Positions 1 through 14,708 of a stretch of 26,510 nt of DNA are shown here, piece by piece. The DNA is taken from positions 1 through 26,510 of IMG/VR virus record IMGVR_UViG_3300037341_000246, one strand, 5' to 3'. Under the pieces are notes generated by a model. That model was not told where the DNA came from. It saw only the letters and a program-made list of their open reading frames with translations, and did not search any database. How positions within the stretch are numbered: position 1 is the first letter of the stretch; each line of letters opens with the position of its first letter. Position numbers and translations under genes: made by a program. Source of the stretch: a virus.

Positions 1-603
1 TACATCGATCCTGCCAACCGTCCCAATCAAGCGACCTTTCAATGCGTTAAGTGCGGACATACCGACCACGCCGATACTAACGCCTCTAAAAATATTTTGC
101 TGCGTGCCACAGACGCTTCAGGGCGCAACAGTTTGCCCTTCGCAAGAAGCTACCGCCCTTGGGGGTGGGAAGTCAAGCCTGTTTCCGGTGGAGACGCGCC
201 ATCGGGTGAGATTTGCATTAGCGAATCGAAGACACAGGAAGCCGCGCCTTCTACTGTTCTCCTAGACGGCGATCGCAACGGCACCAAAGCCCGAGACATG
301 GCATCCAATCTGGAGAACACCTCTCAAAACCATTTCAATCGACCCGAGAAACGCGCGACACAGGAGGTGTTTGGGGTTTGGGAGATTGCAAGTGGCGGAA
401 CGCCTTCAAACAAAGCATCTCAAACCCTTGCCCCGCTTGGGATAGACCCACCTGCAACCTCAGACGAGATCCGCGCAATCCCTGAAACTCCCTTCCAGCA
501 ACCGATCCAGCCCGATTGTAAGAAGCGATCGTCCTCGTCGCGACCGCCGAACTCCGGATCGGCGGCTGGAATCCAGTTAGAGCTTCCGCTTGACTGGGGG
601 TAG
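1..603 (+). CDS. tnpB: TnpB (IS200/IS605-family RNA-guided nuclease), C-terminal part
   Basis: The reading frame is open from the first base, so the gene starts outside the window. Seen: the first 35 residues hold a zinc-ribbon half, CVKCGH, followed by DHADTNASKNI, the usual end of TnpB, which includes the third RuvC acidic residue. Family knowledge: TnpB is a transposon-encoded nuclease guided by an omega-RNA that overlaps the 3' end of its gene. After about residue 80 the translation stops looking like TnpB. It runs on through a degenerate CRISPR-like repeat, read as VFGVWEIAS, and stops with TAG at 601-603, where the first intact CRISPR repeat begins. I infer that the native stop was lost or that the end was rearranged. 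Without the N-terminal part I cannot say whether the nuclease is intact. Confidence 0.8.
   Translation, partial: YIDPANRPNQATFQCVKCGHTDHADTNASKNILLRATDASGRNSLPFARSYRPWGWEVKPVSGGDAPSGEICISESKTQEAAPSTVLLDGDRNGTKARDMASNLENTSQNHFNRPEKRATQEVFGVWEIASGGTPSNKASQTLAPLGIDPPATSDEIRAIPETPFQQPIQPDCKKRSSSSRPPNSGSAAGIQLELPLDWG
311..332 (+). repeat. Left copy of a 22-bp degenerate repeat bracketing the CRISPR array
   Basis: This stretch begins TGGAGAACAC and ends CAAAACCA. It matches 885-906 at 20 of 22 positions. Its second half resembles the reverse complement of the 5' half of the CRISPR repeat (AAAACCATTTC). The two copies lie on either side of the array. Confidence 0.6.
373..392 (+). repeat. Isolated 3' half of the CRISPR repeat
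   Basis: These 20 bases are identical to the last 20 bases of the 37-bp CRISPR repeat, ending GATTGCAAG. They lie inside the tnpB reading frame, 210 bp before the first intact repeat. The 210-bp gap is not a whole number of repeat-spacer units, and I see no further repeats in it, so this is a displaced or eroded copy. Confidence 0.7.
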
Positions 604-858
604 TCGAAATGGTTTTGGAGGGGTTTGGGAGATTGCAAGAATGCTGGCGAGTGCTAACGGCGAGAAAACGACCAGTCGAAATGGTTTTGGAGGGGTTTGG
701 GAGATTGCAAGAATCCTCCAAATATAATGCCCCCAGATTATAGAAATGTCGAAATGGTTTTGGAGGGGTTTGGGAGATTGCAAGAAGGTTTCGCTGCTGG
801 CGTCGCCAGGTGTCGGGAGCGGTCGAAATGGTTTTGGAGGGGTTTGGGAGATTGCAAG
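603..858. CRISPR. Short CRISPR array: four identical 37-bp repeats, three spacers
   Basis: Intact repeats lie at 603-639, 675-711, 748-784 and 822-858. Each begins GTCGAAATGG and ends GATTGCAAG on the plus strand, with no mismatch among them. The spacers (640-674, 712-747, 785-821) are 35, 36 and 37 bp long and differ from each other, which is typical CRISPR geometry. The repeat has little internal dyad symmetry. Orientation is uncertain; read on the minus strand it starts CTTGCAAT, which resembles the 5' end of several cyanobacterial repeats. No cas1 or cas2 lies in the window. The only Cas6-like gene here is at 7915-8541 and may process this array. Confidence 0.9.
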
Positions 859-1363: not shown

Positions 1364-2260
1364 ATGCTGAGCGAAAACGATTCGGATATCTTAAGAATTT
1401 TGGCAACTGCTAACGAGCTATTGCCCGCGATCGCCGACTTGGAAGGTCGCCAGAACCACGCTCAAATCGGCATCGTTTCAGACAATCAAGACCCTACGGG
1501 GTTGCGTCGATTTTCATCCGCCTCAGAGGACAAAGGCGGGCGGTTCCGTGGCGATTTTGAGATGCGAGCGCTCCCGTTTCCATTTTTCGATCCGCCTGTT
1601 GCTCGACCTGGGATGTCATCGGTTGCTCAAGCCTTTGGAGGCAACCCCCACGATCGCTTTACGGGCGGTGTTTTGGTGAACGACCAAAATCCGCCGTTTG
1701 AAAAAGACGACCCATTAAACGATTGTTGGTGGCTCATTCCAGGAAACAACACGCACCAGATACAAGGGGATAATCTAGTCCAAATCGATGAAAATTGTAT
1801 CGTCGAAATTGGCGAAAATCGAGACACTGAGATCGGCGGCGAGGAGAACAGACGAGTAGAGGAAGATTACTCGTTGTCGGACGGAAAAAATCTAACAATT
1901 GAAAATGACGCAGGTGTTATCTTTAAGCAATTCGAGGATGGGTCGTTTTTTGTTAAAAATAACACCGGAGCAGGTGTTTTCTTTTCAAAAGAAGGTGTTG
2001 CCCTTTTAAGGGATGCCTTCAATAATCAAATTACGCTAGGGGGGACGGGTACAGTGTCCCCAGAAGGTAAACTGCAAGCCGATACCGTCAATCCCGACCT
2101 AGCCTGCTGCGATTTAAGGTCGGACTTAGTTTTGAAGATGAACGGGAACGATATCATTGTTCAAAATGCCGGGGACGTGTCCCTTAATGGGAAAACAGCC
2201 ACCACGGTTGGCGCGATTGATGATGATGGCGATCGCACGATAGGGTCGGGGTGGAATTAG
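1364..2260 (+). CDS. Phage baseplate assembly protein V / tail spike-like
   Basis: The 298-aa protein probably forms the central spike beneath the tail hub. Seen: near residues 35-50 the sequence IGIVSDNQDPTGLRRFSS fits the OB-fold entry of gpV/VgrG-type spikes, where a Gly-x-Val, Asp-Pro and Arg pattern precedes the first strands. From about residue 130 the sequence becomes short-period and strand-rich (NTHQIQGDNLVQIDENCIVE, then EIGENRDTEIGG), as expected of a trimeric beta-helix stalk. The last 70 residues are also beta-rich. Family knowledge: such spikes bind the gpD-like hub, which here is at 3861-6896 on the other strand. The gene is coupled to the one at 932. The assignment rests on fold-level similarity and position. 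Confidence 0.7.
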   Translation: MLSENDSDILRILATANELLPAIADLEGRQNHAQIGIVSDNQDPTGLRRFSSASEDKGGRFRGDFEMRALPFPFFDPPVARPGMSSVAQAFGGNPHDRFTGGVLVNDQNPPFEKDDPLNDCWWLIPGNNTHQIQGDNLVQIDENCIVEIGENRDTEIGGEENRRVEEDYSLSDGKNLTIENDAGVIFKQFEDGSFFVKNNTGAGVFFSKEGVALLRDAFNNQITLGGTGTVSPEGKLQADTVNPDLACCDLRSDLVLKMNGNDIIVQNAGDVSLNGKTATTVGAIDDDGDRTIGSGWN

Positions 2261-2304
2261 TATTTCTATATAGCTTAGTAGTTTGAACTTTAGGAGAATC
2301 AAGA

Positions 2305-2712
2305 ATGGAAGAGGAATTGATAGCAGCAATAGAGGAGTCCTTAGCAACATTAAAACGTGTGTTAGACCGGGTTAAATTAAAGAAGGAACTAGGGCAAGGT
2401 CAAGTTCAAAGCACCAACCCCAAAGGGGCAAAACTTAGGTTCGTCAACCTTTCTAATCTGGACTTAACGGGGATAAACTTTGATTATGCCGATCTGACTG
2501 GCTCAGATCTTAGGGACTCAAATCTCAGTAATGCGAGTTTCCAGTACGCTATTTTACGAGATGTTCATCTAGGAGGTACTCAATGTAAGAATACAAATTT
2601 TCACTACGCCAATTTAACGGGCGTATGTTATTCAGAAACTACCAACTTTGAGGGTGCAGATTTTTCATGCGTAACACCAACTGGCACTGACCTACGGTAC
2701 GTTAGAACTTAA
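2305..2712 (+). CDS. Pentapeptide-repeat protein
   Basis: The 135-aa protein has a helical N-terminus (residues 1-35) followed by about 15 A(D/N)LxX-type repeats, for example LSNLDLTGINFDYADLTGSD and later ANLTG and ADFSC units. These build a right-handed quadrilateral beta-helix. Known family roles vary from DNA-gyrase mimicry to scaffolding, and none can be chosen here. A clear ribosome-binding site (TTTAGGAGAATCAAG) precedes the ATG. The gene follows the spike gene after 44 bp and precedes the DUF5131 gene by 18 bp, so it may be read with them. It looks like cargo rather than a tail part. Confidence 0.85.
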   Translation: MEEELIAAIEESLATLKRVLDRVKLKKELGQGQVQSTNPKGAKLRFVNLSNLDLTGINFDYADLTGSDLRDSNLSNASFQYAILRDVHLGGTQCKNTNFHYANLTGVCYSETTNFEGADFSCVTPTGTDLRYVRT

Positions 2713-2730
2713 CTGATTGTATTATAGCTT

Positions 2731-3462
2731 ATGTCTAGCACGCAAACAGGAATAGAGTGGACCGACCGAACGTGGAACCCAACCACTGGCTGCACCAAAG
2801 TCAGCCCGGGTTGCACCCACTGTTATGCAGAAGCCATCACCAAGCGCTTCCATACAGGATTCCCGAACGGATTTCAGCTTACTCTGCACGAAAAACGCCT
2901 ACAAGAACCCAAACGCTGGCGCAAACCCAGTCGCATCTTTGTCAATTCCATGAGCGACTTATTTCATGAAGAAGTTCCCCTCGATTTCATTCGCAATGTG
3001 TTTGATGTCATTCGCGAGACGCCTTGGCATATTTACCAAATTCTAACTAAACGCCACGAACGCCTTCTAGAGCTTTCCGATCGCTTAGAATGGCATGACA
3101 ATATTTGGATGGGGGTATCGGTTGAAAATCAAAATTACGTTCGCCGCGTCGATTATTTGCGCCAAATTCCTGCCAAGGTGCGTTTTTTGTCGTGCGAGCC
3201 ATTATTGGGGAATTTGCAACTCGATTTAACCGACATCCATTGGGTGATTGTTGGTGGCGAATCCGGAAATAAATACCGTCCAGTAGATGTAAATTGGATT
3301 CGCAACATTCGAGATCGCTGCCAATCCGACAATGTGCCTTTCTTCTTTAAACAATGGGGAGGTAGAACCCCTAAATCTAACGGTCGAGTCCTAGATGGGC
3401 AAATTTGGGACGAAATGCCAGAAGCGGGGAGCGATTTACTGCAAGCTTTGTCTAGTCGATAG
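2731..3462 (+). CDS. DUF5131 / phage Gp37-Gp68 family radical-SAM-like protein
   Basis: The 243-aa protein starts with TGIEWTDRTWNPTTGCTKVS and has Cys21, Cys28 and Cys31 in CTKVSPGCTHCYAE. This is the hallmark of the Gp37/Gp68 (DUF5131, PF07505) family. The cysteine arrangement resembles an iron-sulfur binding radical-SAM-type site. Further family blocks are IFVNSMSDLFHE, QILTKRHERL, GVSVENQ, FLSCEPLLG, WVIVGGESG and PFFFKQWGG, so the protein is full length and intact. It is common in phages, plasmids and defence-rich regions, but its biochemical activity is not settled. It lies between the pentapeptide and winged-helix genes on the plus strand. Confidence 0.9.
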   Translation: MSSTQTGIEWTDRTWNPTTGCTKVSPGCTHCYAEAITKRFHTGFPNGFQLTLHEKRLQEPKRWRKPSRIFVNSMSDLFHEEVPLDFIRNVFDVIRETPWHIYQILTKRHERLLELSDRLEWHDNIWMGVSVENQNYVRRVDYLRQIPAKVRFLSCEPLLGNLQLDLTDIHWVIVGGESGNKYRPVDVNWIRNIRDRCQSDNVPFFFKQWGGRTPKSNGRVLDGQIWDEMPEAGSDLLQALSSR

Positions 3463-3498
3463 AAGCTTTATCTAATTTGATGAGTTCTAAATCATTCA

Positions 3499-3864
3499 AT
3501 GAATTCCAACTCTGAATATCAATTAAGTGCCGGAGCAATCGCCTACGCAGAAGAACTTCGCCAACGTTACGGCAAAGGTGTCGCCGAACGGTACATCAGA
3601 ATTATGAAAACACCACAACCTTCTCTGGTTGGATACCAAGATCGGTCTAAGTCGGAAGCCGAGAATCAAACCATCCTAAATATTCTTTCCCGTGGTGGAG
3701 CAATGACGAAAACCGATCTCGTCCGACTATCCCACTATAGCGGCAGGAGGGTTGAAAATATCCTTCGTCGCCTGGCTTTAAGCGGGCAAATCCTCTGCCG
3801 TTCCGCCCCACACAATCGTCGGAGCCGAGTATATGAAATAGTGCAAGAGCCGGACGGGGCTTAG
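3499..3864 (+). CDS. Winged-helix DNA-binding protein
   Basis: The 121-aa protein has an N-terminal helical part (residues 8-35, AIAYAEELRQRYGKGVAERY). From about residue 50 it has a winged-helix pattern: ILNILSRGGAMTKTDLVRLS, then a recognition-helix-like stretch YSGRRVENILRRLALSGQI and a basic wing around CRSAPHNRRSRVYEI. It may be a local transcription regulator and is one candidate binder of the TCTAA-NN-TTAGA palindromes, but nothing in the sequence proves this. Its stop overlaps the end of the convergent hub gene by four bases. Confidence 0.7.
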   Translation: MNSNSEYQLSAGAIAYAEELRQRYGKGVAERYIRIMKTPQPSLVGYQDRSKSEAENQTILNILSRGGAMTKTDLVRLSHYSGRRVENILRRLALSGQILCRSAPHNRRSRVYEIVQEPDGA

Positions 3865-6800
3865 GTTGGAGGAAATATGGTGTGGGCATCGCCGTCGGTG
3901 TAAGCAATCGTGGCAAGGTCGCTTAGCGAATACTTGACGGTGTTTCCATTGTGATCCGAATAATCCGTGTTCCAGTCACCCCAAGGGTCATGAAACACTA
4001 GGGATTTTTCGCCACAATAGCCAATAATGGTGCAGATATGGTCGCCGCTGGTATAGTAGGCACCCATCACCATCGGTTTGCCCGCATCTATCGTATCTCG
4101 AACCTTCTGGATAGTAGGGGCTGTTTCAAAGCTGAAATTAGCGTCGTACGCTGAATTTGCGTAAGTCGTTAAGTTGGAAAGCGATGTAATCGACAGCCCC
4201 TGCGCCAACATTCCTTGCCTGATGTCGTCGGGAGAATCATCGGATATTCCCAGCGCTTTCAGCATCATTGAAAGCGAGGTCACATTGCAGGTTCGATGCG
4301 AATCGACGGGGTTATCTCTTTGGCTTAAATAGGGGACGTCTAAAACCTTGCAACCATCAATATTTTTTGACGATACCCCATCACTGCTTTCTCCACCTTC
4401 AGAACTATCCGAGGAAGCCCCTTTTGACTTTTGAGCCTGCGGCGTATAGAAATCGACGTTGCACGAACTGCCACCAGGCGATATTTCAAATTTAATATTT
4501 TGCAATCGCCACTCGCGTCCGAATGCATCGCGAGCATTTTGAGAATTAAAGCACAGTTTTGATACGGCGATTAAGTTTCCCGGAACAAGAGTCAAAGCCG
4601 AGGAAACTAAAGGGAATTTGGCGCTCGAAACATAGCCGCGAACAATCCGAGATTCGTCCCGAATTGATTGGGCGGTTGCCTCGCCATCCGCTAAATCAAC
4701 CGACCCGAGTTGTTGGTGCGGGAGTCCTGTTCTTGAGTCTGCGTTTGATGGCGTTTCCTCCTCCTCATTTTCTTCCTCGGGGGCGCTTTCGTCGTCGCTC
4801 ACATCCTGTTCGTTGGCTTGTTCGATCGCTTCTTCGACTAAATCCTGGGAAGATTCGGACTCAGACTCTAGCAGGTCGGGATCGTTTTCAGCCCGCTGAC
4901 CGCCGAACAACCCCTCGTAAAGTCTCGAACCAAATCCGTCCGATCGCTCTCCGGTTTGGTTTGATTCTGTTGCCTCGTTTTGCCGTTGGCGCGTCCCGTG
5001 CAACGCAGGCGACCCCGATCCCGTTGTCGATCCCTGCGTCCCCTCAACCCCTAACGCCGCCGCGTCCTCTGTAGAGTTGTCGGTCTCTGTTGGCTCCCCC
5101 GACCCGCGATCGATTTGAGTGTTAGGTTCTCCGGTCGTGCTTGCCGATTCCGAGGCGGTATCGTAAACCCCCGGCGCGGTCAATTGCTCGCGCTGCGCCT
5201 GGTCTCCAAATTGTAGCTCTGCCTGCAACCACTCGTTAATTACAAATCCCGTAAAACCAGGGCGGGTAGGTTTAACAATTAGCGTGCGTCCAGTATCGGA
5301 TATACGGTAGCCGATTGCTCTAGCCTCTCGGATTAGTAGCCTCATGTCAGTAATTCCCGATTGGTCTAAACTTTGATACGCAACGGTCTCCCCACCTTCC
5401 ATTTCTAAATCGAGTCCATTATTGGCGGCGATCTGTTCGCAAAGTTCCCGAAATGTTATGTTTTCAAATGTCTTGTTTCTCTTGCGGCGGGTAAGTGTCC
5501 AACGAACGCATTTTCCTTCAAATGAAACGGTGTCTGGGTATCGACCTTTAGCATAGGTGGCGACATGAATAAAGTGATACGAAACCACTTGATAGGGATT
5601 TTCACCCAATTCGATTACGATCTCTGTTCCCTTGTTGGAAACCTCCGAAGTTTCTTGAGGGGCGTCCGCCTCATTTTCACCGTTTTCAGCGCCGTTATTG
5701 CTAGACTCTTCATTAGATGAATCTTCGGTGGTAGATGACTCCGAATCAGCTTCGCCATCTTCAGTCCGCTGACCGCCAAACACGTCTTTGTAAACTCTCG
5801 ATCCAAGTCCCTCCGAGCTATCCGGTTCGGGTTCCTCCTCCCCGGATGATTTGTTTTCTCCCTCTGAAGGATCGTCATTGGATGCTTCAATCGATCCCGA
5901 TCCGGATTGATAGCTTTCAAGGACGGACGCGAGATCGCCGCTAGTCAATCGCTCCTCATATTCGCGAGCATATCCAGCAATCAATGCCGCGCGATCGGTC
6001 CCATTAACCGTCCGTCTTGCCCCGACATAATCTACGTTTCCCGAACTGTCTGTAAACTCGTCTAAGAGAAGCCCGGTAAATTTTTCTTTAGTCATCCCCG
6101 CAACCAGAATATATGCCGCGATTCCGGCATCCTGATTTACAAGGTCGGGGTCGGATGCAATGTCGATTCCAATTAATTCCGAGTATTTCTCGTAATTTGT
6201 TCGCCCGGTTAGTTGCACATATCCTCGCCCTTTATATCGAGCGCCATCGCCGGGCTGATTATTTCCTAAATCGCTTTGGTTTTCATAATGTTTGGTGAAA
6301 TATGCTTCGTCCCCCTGTTCGACGTTAAACGCAAAATCGCCGCTTTCGTGTTTTGCCGTGGCTAGGATATATGCAATTTGCTGTACGTTATCGATTCCTT
6401 GTCGAACGCATTCTCGGATAATAATTTCTTCGTTTCTAGCCGCATCTCCGAGTGGGTATTCTCCTACCCGAACGCCGTCCCCATCAATCGCCCCGCCGCT
6501 CGATCCCGTTCCGGTTGTACCGCCACTCGTTTCTGGGTCATCCAATAATTCATCGGGAACTTGGATGCCGCCCGACTGATAACTTAACAAAAAATATTTA
6601 CCCGCTAGATCGAGGTGGGGGTCGGAGATCTCAAAGCTACAATTACTGGCTTTCTCATTTTCACCAAGCTCGACATAAACATAAGTAAGCCTGCCGTCTC
6701 CCGTGTAAAAGACATCATCCCCGATCGTTACTTTCGCAAACTGTACAAGGCGATATCCATTTCGCAAGCCGAGAGTTACACTTGAATTAGCCCCCGCCGC

Positions 6801-6896
6801 TTGCACTGGTTCCGTACTTGTTTCTAAAGTTTCGCTGGGTACGTCTATCGCGGGGTTGGCGGCAATCGCCCTGGAGCGAGCTTCGATATCTGTCAT
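3861..6896 (-). CDS. Multidomain tail hub (gpD-like) with GH19 and C39 enzyme domains
   Basis: This 1011-aa protein joins baseplate-hub parts with two cell-wall or protein-cutting domains. Residues about 38-112 and 430-575, with a last piece near 740-835, resemble pieces of the phage late control D hub (for example TFRELCEQIAANNGL and IREARAIGYRI). Residues about 143-320 are a GH19 lysozyme/chitinase-like domain with AKHESGDF (probable catalytic Glu184) and YKGRGYVQLTGRTNYEKY. Residues about 850-1011 resemble a C39-type peptidase: VPYLSQRDNP, Cys870, His953 in GDHICTIIGY and Asp970 in FHDPWGDW. Acidic linkers separate the parts. A motif G-[LF]-GSR-[VL]-Y-x-x-[VL]-FGGQR occurs twice, at residues 363-377 and 654-668. 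I infer that it cuts peptidoglycan and perhaps peptide cross-links when the tail punctures a cell. An intergenic palindrome lies 18 bp upstream of its ATG. Confidence 0.85.
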   Translation of the reverse strand: MTDIEARSRAIAANPAIDVPSETLETSTEPVQAAGANSSVTLGLRNGYRLVQFAKVTIGDDVFYTGDGRLTYVYVELGENEKASNCSFEISDPHLDLAGKYFLLSYQSGGIQVPDELLDDPETSGGTTGTGSSGGAIDGDGVRVGEYPLGDAARNEEIIIRECVRQGIDNVQQIAYILATAKHESGDFAFNVEQGDEAYFTKHYENQSDLGNNQPGDGARYKGRGYVQLTGRTNYEKYSELIGIDIASDPDLVNQDAGIAAYILVAGMTKEKFTGLLLDEFTDSSGNVDYVGARRTVNGTDRAALIAGYAREYEERLTSGDLASVLESYQSGSGSIEASNDDPSEGENKSSGEEEPEPDSSEGLGSRVYKDVFGGQRTEDGEADSESSTTEDSSNEESSNNGAENGENEADAPQETSEVSNKGTEIVIELGENPYQVVSYHFIHVATYAKGRYPDTVSFEGKCVRWTLTRRKRNKTFENITFRELCEQIAANNGLDLEMEGGETVAYQSLDQSGITDMRLLIREARAIGYRISDTGRTLIVKPTRPGFTGFVINEWLQAELQFGDQAQREQLTAPGVYDTASESASTTGEPNTQIDRGSGEPTETDNSTEDAAALGVEGTQGSTTGSGSPALHGTRQRQNEATESNQTGERSDGFGSRLYEGLFGGQRAENDPDLLESESESSQDLVEEAIEQANEQDVSDDESAPEEENEEEETPSNADSRTGLPHQQLGSVDLADGEATAQSIRDESRIVRGYVSSAKFPLVSSALTLVPGNLIAVSKLCFNSQNARDAFGREWRLQNIKFEISPGGSSCNVDFYTPQAQKSKGASSDSSEGGESSDGVSSKNIDGCKVLDVPYLSQRDNPVDSHRTCNVTSLSMMLKALGISDDSPDDIRQGMLAQGLSITSLSNLTTYANSAYDANFSFETAPTIQKVRDTIDAGKPMVMGAYYTSGDHICTIIGYCGEKSLVFHDPWGDWNTDYSDHNGNTVKYSLSDLATIAYTDGDAHTIFPPT

Positions 6897-6914
6897 TACG
6901 ATTCTCGATCTAAT

Positions 6915-6926
6915 CTAACATTAGAC
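6915..6926. promoter_or_regulatory. Palindrome TCTAACATTAGA (site 1)
   Basis: A perfect TCTAA-NN-TTAGA palindrome in the 42-bp gap between the divergent hub gene and the plus-strand gene at 6939. It could control both. It lies very near both starts, where a bound protein would block transcription or initiation. Confidence 0.6.
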
Positions 6927-6938
6927 TAGCTTTAAAAA

Positions 6939-7403
6939 TTGGCTTTAAACATAACGATAGCACCCTACATACAAGCGACCCTCAATATTTTGACCTCCAT
7001 TAGTTACAATCGTCAGACCACAATCCCGATTCGGATTGCGATTGCCCGCACCGAGTCGGCGTATCGCGCAATTGATTTAGGGGATGTCAGTCTTAGAGTC
7101 GCAATAGGCACGGAGGATAGCAATAGCAGCAATTACCTATTGCCTCTTGCCTATTATGAGAATTCTACGGATTGGACGGGGTTTAAAATTATCGAACTTA
7201 CCGATCGCCAAGTTATTCTTGAGGGTCGGATAGAGCCTGACGTTTTCACAATTCTGTCTAACGATCGCGACTGGGAAATTTACGTTAACGCTAAAGCCTT
7301 TATTCAATCGGGCGATCGTGTCGAAACTGTTGCCAGCGAATCTAGTTTTATGCTGAAAAAGAGTAAAGATTCGATCTCCAACTCCCTTTGGTTAACTCTT
7401 TAA
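6939..7403 (+). CDS. Probable tail-associated beta-rich protein, unknown
   Basis: A 154-aa protein without a recognised family. The only early start is TTG at 6939, because no ATG precedes the conserved-looking part, so the start is provisional. The sequence is strand-rich (TTIPIRIAIARTESAYRAID, VSLRVAIG, DWEIYVNAKAFIQSG) with no catalytic motif, signal peptide or membrane helix, which suggests a structural or carbohydrate-binding fold. It is divergent from the hub gene and is followed after 21 bp by another beta-rich protein. A structural role in a tail is only an inference from this neighbourhood. Confidence 0.6.
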   Translation: MALNITIAPYIQATLNILTSISYNRQTTIPIRIAIARTESAYRAIDLGDVSLRVAIGTEDSNSSNYLLPLAYYENSTDWTGFKIIELTDRQVILEGRIEPDVFTILSNDRDWEIYVNAKAFIQSGDRVETVASESSFMLKKSKDSISNSLWLTL

Positions 7404-7424
7404 CCTCAAGCTCAAATTAATTTT

Positions 7425-7901
7425 ATGCCAGACACAGCTAATCTATCTGTCTTCACCTGCCCCGATCGCCCGCGCGTATCGATTTATCAAATCAGCTTAC
7501 CCACCTTACATATTTTCGATGACATGGCTAATCAAGCACTGAACGGAAGAACCTACACGAGAGATGAAGATATCGGCATCGAATTTGTCGTTACGGCGGC
7601 AAACCCGACGCAAGATATGCGCGATGTCGAAGTCTTTTTAGTAGTCGAGGACGCGACCTCTACCCCCGCAACCTACCTGTTTACCAAGGACAACACGACG
7701 GGCGGCAACGGTGGAATTACGGTGTCAGAAAGTACGTCGCGTCGATCTATTTTTCGGGCAATTATTACACCAGACGAATTATCGACATTAACAGATTCGG
7801 CACAGCTAAAATACTCAGTTTGGCTAAAGGTTGACGGGATTAAGAACTTCTACCAAACGGGGACGATTACGAGCGATCCGGCGAGATCGTCTGCGCCTTA
7901 A
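7425..7901 (+). CDS. Beta-sandwich-like protein, unknown
   Basis: A 158-aa protein starting at the ATG at 7425. It has the look of an immunoglobulin-like or other beta-sandwich domain: DIGIEFVVTAANPTQDMRDV, VEVFLVVEDA, RSIFRAIITPDELSTL and LKYSVWLKVDGI are alternating hydrophobic strands separated by polar turns. I see no catalytic residues. It lies 21 bp after the gene at 6939 and ends 13 bp before the convergent cas6 gene. Phage tails often carry such domains as decorations or adhesion modules, but the sequence does not decide this. Confidence 0.6.
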   Translation: MPDTANLSVFTCPDRPRVSIYQISLPTLHIFDDMANQALNGRTYTRDEDIGIEFVVTAANPTQDMRDVEVFLVVEDATSTPATYLFTKDNTTGGNGGITVSESTSRRSIFRAIITPDELSTLTDSAQLKYSVWLKVDGIKNFYQTGTITSDPARSSAP

Positions 7902-7914
7902 TCTTAAGCGTTTT

Positions 7915-8541
7915 TTAGGGGGGATTACAGGCTTTAAAAACTCCTCCTCCAATTCGCCTGCGTCCGCCAATCCCGTAGGTCTGTAGACTGAGAGATTCTT
8001 TGGGTTCTAAAGTTCTGAATTCAACCGAAAATCCCTTAGTTAGCTCTCCTCGAATGTGGAACGAAACTTTCTTCCCCAAGAATGGCGTGCTTTCAACGTT
8101 CAGTGCTTTCATTTGCTTGCCAAGGGTGACCCCAAATTCAAAAGGAAGGGGTTCTCCCCCACGCTTGCGAGCTTCAACCTGAGCAAAGGTCACGACGCGA
8201 GAGGATAGGGTCGATTGCGGCACGATCGGCTCGCCCTCAACACTCCCTAACTGAATCAGCGAAGTTCCGACACGGATGACCCGATCGCTCATGGCAGCGA
8301 CCAGCTCGGGAACCCGATCGCTTGGCGAGCGAAGGTGCAGGCGACTACCTGGGTGCAAGAAGAGCGATCGCCCGCCATAATCGCCATTAATCCCGCCCAG
8401 TTGCCAGTGCCAATCGCGATCGACTTTGAGGGGCGGGTAAATGGCAACCAACCCAGAATAGAGCCAATATTGATAATCTGCGGGAATCGAATATCCCTGT
8501 ATCTCCCAGTAGAGATCGACTGGGGGTGTGGTAATTTCCAT
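7915..8541 (-). CDS. cas6: Cas6-family CRISPR RNA endonuclease (Cmx6-like)
   Basis: A 208-aa protein, near the usual Cas6 length. Seen: the N-terminal DLYWEIQGYSIPADYQYWLY, SRLHLRSPSDRVPEL and VPQSTLSSRVVTF blocks fit the Cas6/Cmx6 family. The C-terminus carries the glycine-rich RAMP loop GIGGRRRIGGGVF at residues 190-202. Family knowledge: Cas6 cuts CRISPR transcripts within repeats and often stays bound to the crRNA handle. The gene is divergent from the cas11-csf2-csf3 set, with only 68 bp between the starts, so both may share a control region. Type IV-B loci normally lack cas6. The intact array at 603-858 is the only substrate candidate seen here. A catalytic histidine cannot be assigned with confidence. 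Confidence 0.85.
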   Translation of the reverse strand: MEITTPPVDLYWEIQGYSIPADYQYWLYSGLVAIYPPLKVDRDWHWQLGGINGDYGGRSLFLHPGSRLHLRSPSDRVPELVAAMSDRVIRVGTSLIQLGSVEGEPIVPQSTLSSRVVTFAQVEARKRGGEPLPFEFGVTLGKQMKALNVESTPFLGKKVSFHIRGELTKGFSVEFRTLEPKESLSLQTYGIGGRRRIGGGVFKACNPP

Positions 8542-8609
8542 CGCTTTGCAGCTAGTAGAGAAGGACTAGAGGTGTGGTAGAGTGTAGGATAGCAGATTAT
8601 CTCAAATAA
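8542..8609. promoter_or_regulatory. Divergent intergenic region between cas6 and the csf operon
   Basis: These 68 bp must hold the 5' signals of both cas6 and the cas operon unless they are read from further away. I see no strong consensus promoter and no good Shine-Dalgarno sequence before the ATG at 8610. The sequence just before that ATG (ATTATCTCAAATAA) is AT-rich. No TCTAA-NN-TTAGA palindrome is present, so these cas genes are not obviously in that regulon. Confidence 0.4.
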
Positions 8610-9260
8610 ATGCCATCACAAATTCCCCGATTTTATGGAATAACAGGTGCGCCCAACCCTGGATACGGCGCACTTTCGGCAATAATTGCCGCCGCCTATC
8701 TTTGCCGCAATCGCACGCAGTCGCAACTCAACGACCCCCTAAAACGATGGGAGCGCCTACCTGGATTGATTCGGGATGCCGCGAGCAAGGCTGACCCTGA
8801 TGCGCCAATGGAATCGTTTGTGTCAAACCTTTGTCGGCTCGCTAACGCTCCAGGTATTGCCCCCCGCGCTCTGAATTGGATTGTGCGCGGCGACCCAAGC
8901 CGCCCAGTTTTTTCCTGTCACCTTCCCAGTAGCGCGCAAAGCATAGGAGAGGCAATCCCAAAACCCGTGACGGAAGATGACTTGCCTCGTGCTTTTGGAT
9001 ATCAGCGCGATCGTGATGGCATTCAAACTGACGAACTCATCGAGCCGGACGACGCACAATATCTCGCCGTAGGAAACTTCTCGGTTCTTGCACATGATGC
9101 GTGCAATCATATGGGTTGCACGCCATTTGACTTAGTGGAATCCGCTCGCGAGCAATATCACGCGATCGCCACTTTTGTCCGCCTCAAAATTGAGGAGTCC
9201 TCGGCTTTGAAGCAATCCGAACCCGAACTCGAAACTATAGAAGTTGTTCCTAATTCCTGA
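8610..9260 (+). CDS. Candidate type IV small subunit (Cas11-like), first gene of the csf operon
   Basis: A 216-aa, mostly helical protein that I do not recognise by sequence. It begins PSQIPRFYGITGAPNPGYGA and has helical stretches at about residues 18-35, 45-75 and 165-200. Its TGA stop overlaps the ATG of csf2 by one base, so the two are translationally coupled. In type IV-B loci the gene directly before csf2 is usually the small subunit cas11, and length and helicity fit. The call is therefore positional. The N-terminal GITGAPNPGYGALSAIIAAA stretch is unusual for a plain small subunit, so an unrelated ancillary protein is possible. It has no nuclease motif and no zinc-binding cysteines. 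Confidence 0.45.
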   Translation: MPSQIPRFYGITGAPNPGYGALSAIIAAAYLCRNRTQSQLNDPLKRWERLPGLIRDAASKADPDAPMESFVSNLCRLANAPGIAPRALNWIVRGDPSRPVFSCHLPSSAQSIGEAIPKPVTEDDLPRAFGYQRDRDGIQTDELIEPDDAQYLAVGNFSVLAHDACNHMGCTPFDLVESAREQYHAIATFVRLKIEESSALKQSEPELETIEVVPNS

Positions 9261-10504
9261 TGGCTAAAAAGAAGAAAACCCAATCTCTCGATCTCCCCCA
9301 TTTCGACTTCGATCTCGGGCAACGGCGTCGAATTAGCTTCATCATACGATTGAAGCTTACCGCCCCTCTGTCCCATATTATGCCCGTAGTGAATGCTGGG
9401 AATCGCAGTGCATTCAATAAAATAGGCGTGGTTGGTCTTGACGGTCGTCCGACAGAGGTTCCTATCTTATCAAGCGCCTCATTTCGCACGCTTTGTTTGC
9501 GCGAGGCGGGAATCGGTAAAACGCTGGAAGCCCTGCAAATCCAAGTCCCAAAAGACGTCCACAATACTTTGTTTAGCGGTGGGTTTGCTAGTGCGGGGGA
9601 TAGCAATGAAAATAACATGGAGCTTTACGAACAACTAGAACGCTATTTCGCCCCCCTCGCCGTTGTTGGGTGCTGCAAACCCGCTGGCGTGTTTGGTAGC
9701 GGAAAAACTCAATACGTTCATGGGCAAATAGACATTGGGCATTTTTATTTGAAATGCTTTGAATCCGCAACGCTTTTGCCCACGCGATTTTTGGGAGAAG
9801 AAGAAGTCGAAGCAATTGCTGAACTTCGACGAGACAAGGCGGCGCTCGATCGACTCAGAAGCCCGGATGGATTCAGAGATGTTCTGATTGACGGATCTAA
9901 TGATGAAAAAGCCCAGCATCGTATTGCGCGGCGAGAATATCAAGAAAAACTAACGCAATATTCTGCTTTGATTCGCCGCAAGCTCCCCCCTTATGGTCGA
10001 TGGTTGGCTGATTATCATTTCACCCGCAGAGACGCGGGTGAAAACCCAAAAATTAAACACCTTGTTGCCGAGCCTGCTGCTCCTCTTCTTGAGGCTGAGG
10101 CGTCTGCTCCCAGTCCCAAAAAGACTAAAGATACGAGCAAGATGATCGCCTCATCGGAGGTTGCTGTGGCGGGAGCAGAATTTGTGAGTCAATGGCACTC
10201 CGTGCCAATGGGAATCACTGAGGTTGGTCTAGGATTTATTGCCTTTGCTTTTAGCGAGTTCTCAAGTCACCCTGCCGTTGGTGGCCAGGCGGCACGAGGT
10301 GCGGGCGGATATCCTGAAATCGATGTCTGGCACGCGATCGATGGCGAGCCGCAGGGCTTATATTTGAGTGCGAGTAACAATACTCAGCATTTTAGCCCTC
10401 AAGCCGAACAAGACTTGCAGCGATATCTCAATTATCTTGACCGCTATCGCGACTGGCTGGCAGAAGCCGCCGAACCTGCTCGGGCATTCCTGGGGGCGGG
10501 TTGA
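9260..10504 (+). CDS. csf2: Csf2 (Cas7-like backbone subunit, type IV)
   Basis: The 414-aa protein is a RAMP of the Cas7 type. Seen: an N-terminal strand IRLKLTAPLSHIMPVVNAGN followed by EVPILSSASFRTLCLREAGI, the order found in Csf2, where a TPL-His strand precedes a P-x-[LI]-S-x-x-x-[FL]-R helix. Later it has VGCCKPAGVFGSGKTQYVHG and a glycine-rich FSSHPAVGGQAARGAGGYPE loop. Family knowledge: Csf2 polymerises along the guide RNA to form the backbone of the type IV complex. It is longer than typical Csf2, and residues about 272-295 (with APSPKKTKDTSK) look like a disordered insertion. The gene overlaps its neighbours by one base on both sides (TGATG junctions), a tight operon. Confidence 0.75.
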   Translation: MAKKKKTQSLDLPHFDFDLGQRRRISFIIRLKLTAPLSHIMPVVNAGNRSAFNKIGVVGLDGRPTEVPILSSASFRTLCLREAGIGKTLEALQIQVPKDVHNTLFSGGFASAGDSNENNMELYEQLERYFAPLAVVGCCKPAGVFGSGKTQYVHGQIDIGHFYLKCFESATLLPTRFLGEEEVEAIAELRRDKAALDRLRSPDGFRDVLIDGSNDEKAQHRIARREYQEKLTQYSALIRRKLPPYGRWLADYHFTRRDAGENPKIKHLVAEPAAPLLEAEASAPSPKKTKDTSKMIASSEVAVAGAEFVSQWHSVPMGITEVGLGFIAFAFSEFSSHPAVGGQAARGAGGYPEIDVWHAIDGEPQGLYLSASNNTQHFSPQAEQDLQRYLNYLDRYRDWLAEAAEPARAFLGAG

Positions 10505-11286
10505 TGGAGTTTTTGTCCGTATCTTGCGAGCTTCAGTCCCCTCTCGGGGTGACGGACGATTGGAGTCCCGATCTCGGAGCGCTGCTAGAAAGATTGTGGT
10601 GGGATGTTCATGGAATTCCCGGCGACAGCAACCTCGTCTCCGCCCCCACTCTGCGCCATGCGCCGATCCCGCTAGCATGGGGCGTGCTGCGATCGCCGAA
10701 CAAGACCGATCCACAAGGACTCGCAACTGAATGGGACGACCCCCGCCCGCGCGCCGACTTGCCTGCTGATTGGCATTGGTGTTCGAGTAGTCCGATATAC
10801 CGTTACAGTCACCACACCACCCAGCCAATTCGCCGCGCATGGCGACCGCAGCGAACCCGGCACTTGTTGCTCGACGATGGAGCAAAATGGAATAGCTCGT
10901 CGGGAAATTATAAATCCTACGATTTGCAAGCCCCCGGACGCTGCCTCGACTCGCCAATCCGCTGGCATTGCGTTGGCAATCGAGATGGAATTGCCGAGCT
11001 TTTATCTTATTGTTCGGCGATCGGGCGCAATCGCAAAGCGGGACAAGGGCAAATCCGTCCGGGGAGTTGGCGCATCGAACCTGTTGAGCGAGATTTTAGC
11101 TTGCTCAGCCCGCAGGGGGCGATCGTTCGCCCCGTCCCCGTTCGATTGGGAGAGACCTATGGGATAATCCGAACTTGGTGCTGGCGACCGCCAGGAACGC
11201 TTAGGGAATTTGCGGAGCCGTGCTGGATGCCTCAGATCGTTCGCTTCGCCCCGCCGATTTCCCCTGTGTCGGAGGTTTGGCAGTAA
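10504..11286 (+). CDS. csf3: Csf3 (Cas5-like subunit, type IV)
   Basis: A 260-aa Cas5-type RAMP. The ATG at 10504 is chosen over the TTG one codon earlier because it overlaps the csf2 stop in a TGATG junction. Seen: an N-terminal strand FLSVSCELQSPLGV, the block RHAPIPLAWGVL at about residues 58-69, and a C-terminal glycine-rich loop AIGRNRKAGQGQIRPGSW, followed by RDFSLLSPQGAIVRPVPVRL. This matches the Csf3 layout, in which a G-x-x-R-x-x-G-x-G loop precedes a W and a short arginine-proline segment. Family knowledge: Csf3 caps the 5' end of the guide RNA. The stop is followed at once by the IscB element, so transcription into cysH and csf1 may now be interrupted. Confidence 0.75.
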   Translation: MEFLSVSCELQSPLGVTDDWSPDLGALLERLWWDVHGIPGDSNLVSAPTLRHAPIPLAWGVLRSPNKTDPQGLATEWDDPRPRADLPADWHWCSSSPIYRYSHHTTQPIRRAWRPQRTRHLLLDDGAKWNSSSGNYKSYDLQAPGRCLDSPIRWHCVGNRDGIAELLSYCSAIGRNRKAGQGQIRPGSWRIEPVERDFSLLSPQGAIVRPVPVRLGETYGIIRTWCWRPPGTLREFAEPCWMPQIVRFAPPISPVSEVWQ

Positions 11287-11517
11287 ACTACCCGCCACCA
11301 AGCTACAGCTATGGTGGGGGCTTTTAAAGCCCAGAGTTTACCAGGCTAGGTGTTAACTCACTACGTTACGAAAGTCAGGATACCTAAGAATGCGTAGCCA
11401 GTTTTTAGCTCTATCGCTTGCGATTAAACAGGCATATCGGGTCGAAGCCAGTGTCGTAAGCAAGACAAGCTTTCGTAACATTGCCAAGGCTAACATTACC
11501 CGAAAGGAGACTCATTC
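11287..11517 (+). ncRNA. Predicted IscB omega-RNA region
   Basis: The 231 bp before iscB have no gene and have strong local structure. CCACCA at 11295-11300 pairs with TGGTGG at 11312-11317, with AGCT/AGCT continuing the stem, and GGGCTTTTAAAGCCC at 11318-11332 forms a second hairpin. Family knowledge: IscB is guided by an omega-RNA transcribed from directly upstream, with the guide at its 5' end taken from the DNA left of the element. Here the guide would come from the last bases of csf3. The exact RNA ends cannot be read from the sequence. Confidence 0.7.
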
Positions 11518-12804
11518 GTGAGTAAAGTTTTCGTCTTAGATACAAACAAACAGTCTCTTAATCCTGTCCATCCAGGTAGAGCAAGAATGCTGTTATCTCA
11601 AGGGGAAGCCGCTGTATTTCGTCAGTATCCCTTCACGATCATTTTAAAAAAGGAGGTATCGAACTCAAAAATTGAACCACTCAGAATCAAGATTGACCCC
11701 GGTGCAAAAACTACTGGATTGGCAGTTGTTAACGACAGCACTGGGGAAGTCATCTGGGCAGCAGAATTGCAGCATCGTGGTTTTCAGATTAGGGAGGCTT
11801 TAACGTCTCGTCGTCAACTACGACGCTTACGCCGTAACCGCAAAACCCGTTACCGTAAGCCGCGTTTCCTTAACCGCACCCGCCCAAAAGGATGGTTGTC
11901 GCCGTCTCTTAACAGTCGAGTAGCTAACATTCTGACTTGGGTTAAGCGCCTATCATCACTGTGTCAAATCACTGCCATTTCTCAGGAATTGGTGAGGTTT
12001 GACACCCAACAGATGGAAGATGCCGAGATTAGCGGGGTCGGCTATCAGCAGGGAACCTTGGCGGGTTATGAGGTACGCGAGTTTCTCTTAGAGAAGTGGG
12101 ATAGAACCTGTGCCTACTGTGGCGCAAAAGACACCAAGCTTGAAATTGAACATATTCAACCTCGGTCTAAAGGTGGGTCTAATCAAGTCAGCAATCTGTG
12201 TTTAGCTTGTACTTCCTGCAATCAGAAAAAAGGGAATCAAGATATCAAGGATTTCCTGAAAGGTAAGCCCGACTTGTTTAAACGAGTCTTGGCACAAGCC
12301 AAAAGACCTTTGGCTGATACAGCAGCAGTTAACGCAACTCGATGGAATCTGTACGAAAACCTCAAGAAAACAAGCTTACCTGTTGAGGTTGGCACAGGTG
12401 GACGTACTAAGTACAACCGCACTATCCGAGGCTTGGAGAAGACTCACTATTGGGACGCTGCCTGTGTTGGCGTATCAACCCCAGAGCAGTTAATCACGAC
12501 AGGGATTAAGCCCCTCTTGATTGCTGCCAAAGGTCATGGAACTCGTCAGCAATGTCGCACAGACAGATACGGGTTCCCAGTTCGTTATTGCTCTAGAACC
12601 AAATTCCACAAAGGTTTTCAGACAGGTGACCTCGTCAAAGCGGTTGTCACTTCTGGCAAAAAGATTGGAACTTATGTTGGTCGGGTCGCTACTCGTGCCA
12701 CTGGAAGTTTCAATATCTCAACACCTAATGGGCTGGTTCAAGGCATCAGCCACAAATATTGCACACACATTCACAAAAAGGATGGATATTCCTATGCCAA
12801 CTAA
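11518..12804 (+). CDS. iscB: IscB RNA-guided nuclease (RuvC-HNH)
   Basis: The 428-aa protein is complete and looks active. Seen: an N-terminal PLMP-type segment (SLNPVHPGRARMLLSQGEAA, residues 13-32), RuvC-I with Asp60 in IKIDPGAKTTG, an arginine-rich bridge helix (residues 98-117), RuvC-II with Glu157 in ISQELVRFD, an HNH domain at about 195-245 with Cys198/Cys201, His212 in EIEHIQPRSKGG, Asn226 and Cys231/Cys234, and RuvC-III with His310 and Asp313 in THYWDAACVG. Family knowledge: IscB is the likely ancestor of Cas9 and cuts double-stranded DNA guided by the omega-RNA. The start is GTG at 11518, with AAAGGAGACTC upstream. The gene separates csf3 from cysH. Confidence 0.97.
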   Translation: MSKVFVLDTNKQSLNPVHPGRARMLLSQGEAAVFRQYPFTIILKKEVSNSKIEPLRIKIDPGAKTTGLAVVNDSTGEVIWAAELQHRGFQIREALTSRRQLRRLRRNRKTRYRKPRFLNRTRPKGWLSPSLNSRVANILTWVKRLSSLCQITAISQELVRFDTQQMEDAEISGVGYQQGTLAGYEVREFLLEKWDRTCAYCGAKDTKLEIEHIQPRSKGGSNQVSNLCLACTSCNQKKGNQDIKDFLKGKPDLFKRVLAQAKRPLADTAAVNATRWNLYENLKKTSLPVEVGTGGRTKYNRTIRGLEKTHYWDAACVGVSTPEQLITTGIKPLLIAAKGHGTRQQCRTDRYGFPVRYCSRTKFHKGFQTGDLVKAVVTSGKKIGTYVGRVATRATGSFNISTPNGLVQGISHKYCTHIHKKDGYSYAN

Positions 12805-12876: not shown

Positions 12877-13596
12877 ATGAACGCAGTCGAGCGACATGGA
12901 TTTCTGACTCATGCTCGAACGAAACGATTTGCACGAAAAATCCGGCAAGCCCACGAAGTTATCGCCGAGGCATTGAAACTTGCTCCGGCTTTCGTTTCCC
13001 TGAGCTGGGGAAAAGATAGTACGGTGCTTTTGCACTTAGCTCAACAAATCAATCCAAATATTTTGGCGGTTCATTTTTCTACACCATGCCAAAACCTTTT
13101 GGAAGACTATTCCGGGATAGAGAAAGCCTATTGCAATCGATTCCCGACCAACCTCAAGACTGTTGATATTGGCATGGAAATCACCTTGCCTGAAGCAGTA
13201 CGGAGGCAATTAATCTGGCAATCTCACCCTGTCGCTTTGACAGGAATGCGGGCAGAAGAAAACCCCGGCACGCGAGGGAAACACCTCAAAAGTCGTGGGT
13301 TAATTGTTCCTTACAAATCCCCTGAATTAAAAGGCGTGACTGCTGCCCATCCTTTGGGATTTTGGTCGTGGCAAGACGTATGGGCTTATATCTGCGATCG
13401 CGATCTTCCTTACTTACCAAGCTATGACGAGACTTTCATCCACAAATCTCGTAGCCGAACGACCAACGTAATGCCGTTTCTTGGCAACAATTCAGCATCT
13501 CAAAGGCTTGGTAGAATAGACCGAATGAAAATGGAGTCACCAGAAGCTTATGCCTTTTTACAGCAATACTATCCCCACGTCGTTGGCAGCTATTGA
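12877..13596 (+). CDS. cysH: CysH-like PP-loop ATPase, type IV-B ancillary protein
   Basis: A 239-aa protein from the ATG at 12877, which has GGGGGAAGAAG just upstream; the longer frame from 12805 translates transposon-end sequence. Seen: the PP-loop SLSWGKDSTVLL at residues 41-52, a later TGMRAEENPGTRGKH block that fits the PAPS-reductase-like fold, and HPLGFWSWQDVWAYI. The Glu-Cys-Gly-x-His motif needed by sulfonucleotide reductases is missing, so ordinary sulfate reduction is unlikely. Family knowledge: a cysH-like gene accompanies most type IV-B CRISPR loci, with unknown function; PP-loop enzymes adenylate or thiolate their substrates. The ribosome-binding site abuts the IscB right end. 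The gene end overlaps the cupin gene by 47 bp if the cupin uses its first ATG. Confidence 0.85.
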   Translation: MNAVERHGFLTHARTKRFARKIRQAHEVIAEALKLAPAFVSLSWGKDSTVLLHLAQQINPNILAVHFSTPCQNLLEDYSGIEKAYCNRFPTNLKTVDIGMEITLPEAVRRQLIWQSHPVALTGMRAEENPGTRGKHLKSRGLIVPYKSPELKGVTAAHPLGFWSWQDVWAYICDRDLPYLPSYDETFIHKSRSRTTNVMPFLGNNSASQRLGRIDRMKMESPEAYAFLQQYYPHVVGSY

Positions 13597-13948
13597 TCCA
13601 AGCCAGTACCGCGATCGCGCGCCATCCTCCGTCCCCGGTGCCCCCGATGCCACCCTGATCGAGATTGGGTTGGATGCTGACGGGAACCAAATCAACTTGG
13701 TACGGGTTTGTCCGTTCGGGATAATCCCAAATCATACCCATACCTGTGCTAGCGGTATGGGTATTACTGCGGGTTCCGCAGTTGCCACGGGTAAGGAGGG
13801 CGGAGATCGGCAGGTTGGGGTGGGGGATTATATCTTTAAACCCCCCGGCCAAGCGCACGGCTTTCGTGCAGGGTCTCAGGGACTAGAGTTCTTGAGTATC
13901 AGCGATGGCGAGGGCATTGTAGGCGATCGTTGGGATATTGAATATTAA
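13550..13948 (+). CDS. Single-domain cupin protein
   Basis: The 132-aa protein has both cupin motifs: PNHTHTCASGMGITAGSAVA (His-x-His in motif 1) and GDYIFKPPGQAHGFRAG (motif 2, with Pro-x-Gly-x-x-His). These residues would bind a metal. The start is uncertain: ATG at 13550 lies inside cysH, and a TTG near 13583 is possible. The stop is one base before the ATG of csf1, so cupin and csf1 are surely co-transcribed. Cupins include dioxygenases, sugar enzymes and small-molecule sensors, so no reaction can be chosen. Its position between cysH and csf1 makes it a possible extra component of this CRISPR module. I know of no standard type IV locus with a cupin. Confidence 0.85.
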   Translation: MPFYSNTIPTSLAAIDPSQYRDRAPSSVPGAPDATLIEIGLDADGNQINLVRVCPFGIIPNHTHTCASGMGITAGSAVATGKEGGDRQVGVGDYIFKPPGQAHGFRAGSQGLEFLSISDGEGIVGDRWDIEY

Positions 13949-13949
13949 T

Positions 13950-14708
13950 ATGGCTTGCCACCTCTGCGCTCATCCCGACGCGCCGCACCCTCTCAGCATC
14001 GGTAAAGACTTTACCGCCCGCGATCAGTGCTTGAGACCGGACAGCAAGATGATGTGCGATCGCTGCTTTGACCTGATTGCGGGGCGCTATCAATACGCCT
14101 GGTATTGGAATGAGGGGAAGCAAAAATGGTCGCGGATCTTCACCCGCAATCCGAAATACTGGCTGCTGCGCGACCCCCGCGACCTTGAGAGCCCCCGCAA
14201 CCGCCCCTACTTTGGCGCGCTGCGAGATGAGGGCAAAGGCGAGTGGCATGAGCTTTGTGCGATGCCCAGCTACAGGGATGCGCGCGAGTGGCTACTGAAC
14301 CCCCCGGAACCGCCATTTTGTCTGGCGATTGGGATAAGTGGGCAAAAGCACGTCTTGCCTTTTGCCCAGGAAGCCCGCAGCCGCGACTATTTCCCCGTTC
14401 AAGTCGAGACTGAAGCGGTTTGGATCGATCGAGATGAGATCGCGCGGCTAATCGAGAAACTAGAGCTTTTGCTGGCAGCGGGCTTTTCTAAGAAAGAAAT
14501 TTCCGCGTGGGAAAGGCAGCCTTATCCTCGATCTGCCAAAGCGAATCTACTCTGGATAAGCTACGATTCGGAAATGCGTGCGTTCAAGGCTTCGGGGCTG
14601 TTCGATTTAGCGTGCCTGGTGTCCGTTCGCCCCGAACTTTTAGAACCCAAGTCCGATCCCGAACCCGAACCTCAATCCTTGCAACCCTCGCAACTCAGTT
14701 TATTCTGA
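13950..14708 (+). CDS. csf1: Csf1 (type IV large-subunit-like, zinc finger)
   Basis: A 252-aa protein from ATG 13950, one base after the cupin stop. An in-frame TTG at 13938 is rejected because it adds only four residues inside the cupin gene. Seen: a zinc-binding pattern with Cys3/Cys6 and Cys36/Cys39 around the FTARD block, then PFCLAIGISGQKHVLPFAQE at about residues 123-142, followed by YFPVQVETEAVWIDRDEIAR and LLAAGFSKKEISAW. Together these fit Csf1, the signature protein of type IV CRISPR-Cas, which has a FT-D zinc finger and a serine-glycine-K-H block. The C-terminal 30 residues are an acidic, proline-rich tail ending QLSLF. In most type IV-B loci csf1 lies near csf2; here an IscB insertion and two genes separate them. 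Confidence 0.75.
   Translation: MACHLCAHPDAPHPLSIGKDFTARDQCLRPDSKMMCDRCFDLIAGRYQYAWYWNEGKQKWSRIFTRNPKYWLLRDPRDLESPRNRPYFGALRDEGKGEWHELCAMPSYRDAREWLLNPPEPPFCLAIGISGQKHVLPFAQEARSRDYFPVQVETEAVWIDRDEIARLIEKLELLLAAGFSKKEISAWERQPYPRSAKANLLWISYDSEMRAFKASGLFDLACLVSVRPELLEPKSDPEPEPQSLQPSQLSLF

Follow-up and report, generated by a model that had tools for sequence, protein, structure and literature searches.

The window, i.e. the whole stretch analysed, is a 26.5-kb IMG/VR virus record (26,510 nucleotides) in which contractile-tail genes flank a type IV CRISPR operon. The operon order was cas6 (minus strand), a probable cas11, csf2, csf3, an omegaRNA-iscB element, cysH, a cupin gene, csf1 and DUF5895. 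The Cmx6-like cas6 (7915..8541) was recognized by Pfam Cas6 (8e-33) and TIGR02807. All features described next, from cas11 to csf1, were on the plus strand. The probable cas11 (8610..9260) had a weak match to PADLOC type IV Cas11 (0.006) and a match to the protein that occupies the cas11 position in Gloeobacter (1.7e-6). PADLOC identified csf2 (type IV Cas7, 9260..10504, 5.5e-26), csf3 (type IV Cas5, 10501..11286, 2.8e-28) and csf1 (type IV Cas8, 13950..14708, 2e-21), the latter also matching TIGR03114 (4e-11). Between them, cysH (12877..13596) encoded a CasCysH-like PP-loop protein with an SWGKDS motif (Pfam PAPS_reduct, 1e-12), followed by the gene for a Cupin_2-like protein of 132 aa (13550..13948), assigned by Pfam Cupin_2, phmmer and AlphaFold2/Foldseek.

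Two further features were found in the window. Between csf3 and cysH, and not belonging to the module discussed below, lay a plus-strand element of 11283-12804, consisting of a HEARO/omegaRNA (11283-11499, Rfam RF02033, 147.7 bits) and iscB (11518-12804, NF040563 guided_IscB, 1e-141). Here, an RNA-guided nuclease element is inserted into a virus-borne type IV operon. A CRISPR array located some 7 kb upstream (603..858, no strand assigned) had four 37-nt repeats, GTCGAAATGGTTTTGGAGGGGTTTGGGAGATTGCAAG, with a partial repeat near 373. Among the loci compared, a simple repeat scan gave a convincing array in the window only. The GC content of cysH was 47%, like that of iscB, and that of cupin and csf1 (13598-14705) was about 57%. 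Because of this difference, cysH and the cupin gene may have arrived separately in the window.

The cupin ORF was intact, with 132 codons from an ATG at 13550 to a TAA at 13946-13948. The first-pass annotation had placed it within the cas operon, overlapping cysH and ending one base from csf1. This arrangement was confirmed, with the cysH stop at 13596 giving a 47-nt overlap and the csf1 ATG (13950) one base past the cupin stop, and the gene is a genuine, recurring operon member. The true start may be a TTG at 13583, as the homologous protein of another virus (L041; the compared loci carry L numbers) begins at about that position. Against Pfam Cupin_2, the window protein scored slightly below the cut-off (E=5e-5; 23.3 bits, cut-off 27.2), and phmmer matched it to the same-slot cupin of L041 (5e-12). 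The mean pLDDT of an AlphaFold2 model built on a seven-row alignment was 69, and its beta-barrel core reached 76-93 in blocks across residues 41-120. The best PDB folds retrieved with this model by Foldseek were the Mn cupin TM1459 and the lyase DddK, both metal-dependent. The protein has the double-stranded beta-helix fold and the HxH...H motif of the cupin superfamily.

The metal-binding histidines had been described as kept, and this was true of H62, H64 and H103, which were invariant across all cupins found, but not of the fourth ligand. This position was occupied by Ser68 in the window and by Cys in L041. The remaining six type IV cupins, from L001, L018, L025, L040, L057 and L071, kept the fourth His and represent another subtype. 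The window and L041 cupins formed their own clade (97/88), for which no closer affinity to these six than to generic cupins was apparent, so that two separate recruitments of a cupin are possible. In sequence, the cupin family was matched most closely by PDB 9ug7 (1.2e-18).

The window CysH (P0002) lacked the C-terminal catalytic Cys motif of PAPS reductase, the CysH proper, having no Cys after residue 173 (C-terminal 66 residues). Its model had a pLDDT of 86 and was nearest to the PAPS domain of FAD synthase, then to TtuA, and then to PAPS reductases/CysH. The FAD synthase PAPS domain transfers AMP. Together, the missing C-terminal Cys and the predicted fold are consistent with substrate adenylation by CasCysH, as proposed in the literature (PMC8175902).

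Related loci were gathered by searching IMG/VR with csf2, csf1, cysH and cupin. Alignment queries were needed for this, as single-sequence queries with the window cupin or cysH gave no matches. A cupin beside cysH within a csf operon was found in eight loci, namely the window, a plasmid of Gloeobacter morelensis (pGMOR1, L001) and six IMG/VR records (L018, L025, L040, L041, L057 and L071), with the csf identity backed by PADLOC. The order cysH-cupin-csf1, which the first-pass annotation had proposed to look for in other genomes, recurred in three of them. In L001 it was part of csf2-cas6-csf3-cysH-cupin-csf1, in L018 it formed a separate cassette on the opposite strand, and in L041 the cupin between cysH and csf1 was inverted (opposite strand). 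The other arrangements were cysH-cupin-csf3-csf1 (L025), csf1-csf2-cysH-cupin-csf3 (L040) and csf3-cupin-cysH (L057, L071). Overlaps between cysH and cupin were also found outside the window, of 22 nt in L001, 1 nt in L025 and 4 nt in L040, as well as in L018. Many IV-B-like loci, with or without a cupin, had a cas6 as well (the window, L001, L005, L016, L018, L022, L024, L025 and L044).

A reverse search of IMG/VR with the cupin family returned seven matches, five of them in type IV loci and a sixth, in L073, ~1 kb from a PP-loop gene. In a Pfam Cupin_2 census of the tested virus records, only L040, L041, L071, L073 and L074 were above the cut-off, the last two being phages without csf genes. 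L073 carried, within 3.1 kb (3454-6537), a PAPS-reductase/DUF3440 PP-loop gene, a weak ParB match and the same-family cupin, whose Cys-rich C-terminus is shared with PDB 9ug7.

None of 30 generic actinobacterial cupins had a cysH or csf gene within a locus of ~3 kb, a search of 396 genomes of one phylum yielded generic cupins only, and the IV-B loci brought up by a scan of genome contigs, actinobacterial for the most part, all had operons without a cupin. In cultured phages, csf1, csf2 and the cupins were all without a match. Cupins matched in plasmids, for example that of Pseudonocardia (L038), belonged to biosynthetic clusters and were not considered further. In the literature searched, no cupin was reported for a type IV CRISPR system, though an earlier mention may exist. 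The proposal of the cupin as a new type IV component held in part. It is a recurrent CasCysH accessory, but not a general component, most of the type IV loci examined being without it.

In L005, L044 and L042, the cupin's slot directly 3' of an SWGKDS CysH was occupied by a Coq4-family protein, unrelated to cupins in sequence. The genes were located at 8701-9468, 8720-9496 and 8693-9310, respectively, and scored 24.1, 27.6 and a weak 13.9 bits against PF05019 (cut-off 22.9). These proteins carry an HDxxH...E motif, the metal site of Coq4 (PMC9774615), and COQ4 was reported to catalyse an oxidative decarboxylation (PMC12938788). A search of plasmids with the Coq4-like protein gave no match. Coming from a single clade of three loci, it is a candidate equivalent of the cupin, which we regard as a lead and not as proof.

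The cupin followed the phylogeny of CysH. Cupin presence was clustered on the CysH tree, and on the Csf2 tree it was clustered no more than shuffled labels. With 47 matched loci on both trees, it required 4 changes for CysH, a number equalled by none of 500 shuffles, and 7 for Csf2, equalled or undercut by 143 of 500; the label shuffles test clustering only and are inflated by relatedness, and it is the contrast between the two trees that is informative. One CysH clade of 10 loci (99/98) comprised six with a cupin, three with a Coq4-like protein and one, L029, with neither, and in the L029 CysH the PP-loop lysine was gone (SWGTDS). The L029 record held two adjoining type IV cysH-csf1 sets, with the SWGTDS loop in one CysH, and three csf3 genes (1699-8665). 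Loci with closely related effectors differed in their modules. The sister Csf2 proteins (100/98) of L025 and L016 were accompanied by an SWGKDS CysH plus cupin and by an SGGKDS CysH without cupin, respectively. Similarly, L018 (cupin), L044 (Coq4-like) and L022/L024 (neither) had close Csf2, and L040 combined a cyanobacterial-clade CysH and its cupin with a distant Csf2. These comparisons point to CysH as the partner of the cupin, the same result as the contrast between the trees. As judged from the phylogenies, the cupin is inherited with CysH, and not with Csf1 or the rest of the complex, a pairing that is well supported.

We consider it rather probable that the cupin is a dedicated metal-binding enzyme accessory of the type IV-B CasCysH, in a module swapped as a unit among effector backbones. 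Observed were that the cupin gene is paired with cysH and co-inherited with it, that the metal-ligand histidines are conserved, and that a Coq4-like metal-motif protein occupies the same slot in related loci; beyond this, we infer the following chemistry. The cupin and CysH would form a two-enzyme module, whose overlapping genes are probably translationally coupled. CysH, as an N-type ATP-pyrophosphatase-like adenylating enzyme, would activate a substrate with ATP. The cupin would perform an accompanying metal-dependent step on the substrate or product, by oxidation, decarboxylation or lyase chemistry. The product could then modify nucleic acid (RNA or DNA) bound in the Csf complex, or serve as a small-molecule signal. 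A small-molecule or RNA-modifying pathway had initially been suggested from gene position; the co-inheritance with CysH and the metal-motif replacement now stand behind this suggestion as well. A broader version is more tentative, and we would sooner doubt than adopt it at present: that an exchangeable module of an adenylating CysH with a cupin or Coq4-like protein makes a modified nucleotide, an RNA mark or a signal, which gives the nuclease-less IV-B-like complex its function.

The main rival is a non-enzymatic role, in which the cupin would sense a ligand or regulate CysH or the Csf complex allosterically; this is possible but rather unlikely. It would agree with the loss of the fourth metal ligand in the window subtype and with AraC-type ligand-binding cupin models, which ranked second for several relatives. 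However, the three His are invariant in all cupins found, and the slot's other occupant, the Coq4-like metal-motif protein, has no known sensor role. We prefer an enzyme over a sensor because this replacement belongs to a metal-motif family that includes an oxidative decarboxylase.

It is improbable that the cupin is a chance passenger without connection to the type IV system, such as a phage moron or a cargo gene from the host. Cargo genes are plentiful in virus genomes, other genes also occupy the slot after cysH, which could be a permissive site, and most type IV loci do without the cupin. A passenger would not be expected to recur in eight divergent loci, to overlap cysH, or to be associated with the CysH but not the Csf2 phylogeny, and Cupin_2 was otherwise nearly absent from the tested virus records. 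The first-pass suggestion in its strongest form, with the cupin as a new Cas subunit that has a structural or regulatory part in the Csf ribonucleoprotein, is very improbable. The window gene between cysH and csf1, almost abutting the latter, might suggest it, but cupin presence does not track the Csf2 phylogeny, close complexes lack it, and the gene after the cupin is csf3, not csf1, in L025 and L040.

The function of IV-B systems, and the reason for their near-constant CysH-like protein, have been recognized as unsolved (PMC8175902, PMC11656645). The pairing of cupin and CysH suggests joint work in one pathway. A recurring metal-binding partner that is inherited with CysH, and whose place a Coq4-like protein can take, focuses the search on two-step enzyme chemistry, and the module offers small soluble proteins suited to expression and assay.

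With csf2/Cas7, csf3/Cas5 and csf1, the window operon belongs to type IV. It resembles type IV-B in csf1-3, the probable cas11, its location on a mobile element, and a CasCysH in the operon with a PP-motif and without the catalytic C-terminal Cys. It differs by the additional cas6, short array, cupin and inserted omegaRNA-IscB. Type IV-B is normally described without cas6 and CRISPR array (PMC8175902); as the window has both a crRNA-processing enzyme and a four-repeat array, its operon is best called an IV-B-like variant. No DinG helicase, as in IV-A, was found among the operon-adjacent proteins scanned, the ORFs of the window having been scanned in part and the contig being a fragment.

The Gloeobacter plasmid locus shared 42% identity with the window in cysH, 34% in csf1, 32% in csf2 and 29% in the cupin. 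In contrast to the window, it had no IscB insertion, its cas6 was inside the operon on the same strand, and its cupin was of the four-His subtype. The IV-B system of Fuxivirus (PMC10848311) is likewise virus-borne, with CysH and a CRISPR mini-array, but the virus is archaeal, and a cupin and Cas6 are unmentioned in the text. For the cupin itself, the comparison is with TM1459, at about 25% identity. TM1459 binds metal through four His (PMC5031596). Its ligands H52, H54 and H92 correspond to H62, H64 and H103 of the window cupin, whereas the position of its H58 is a Ser, so that the window protein departs from the four-His type of TM1459.
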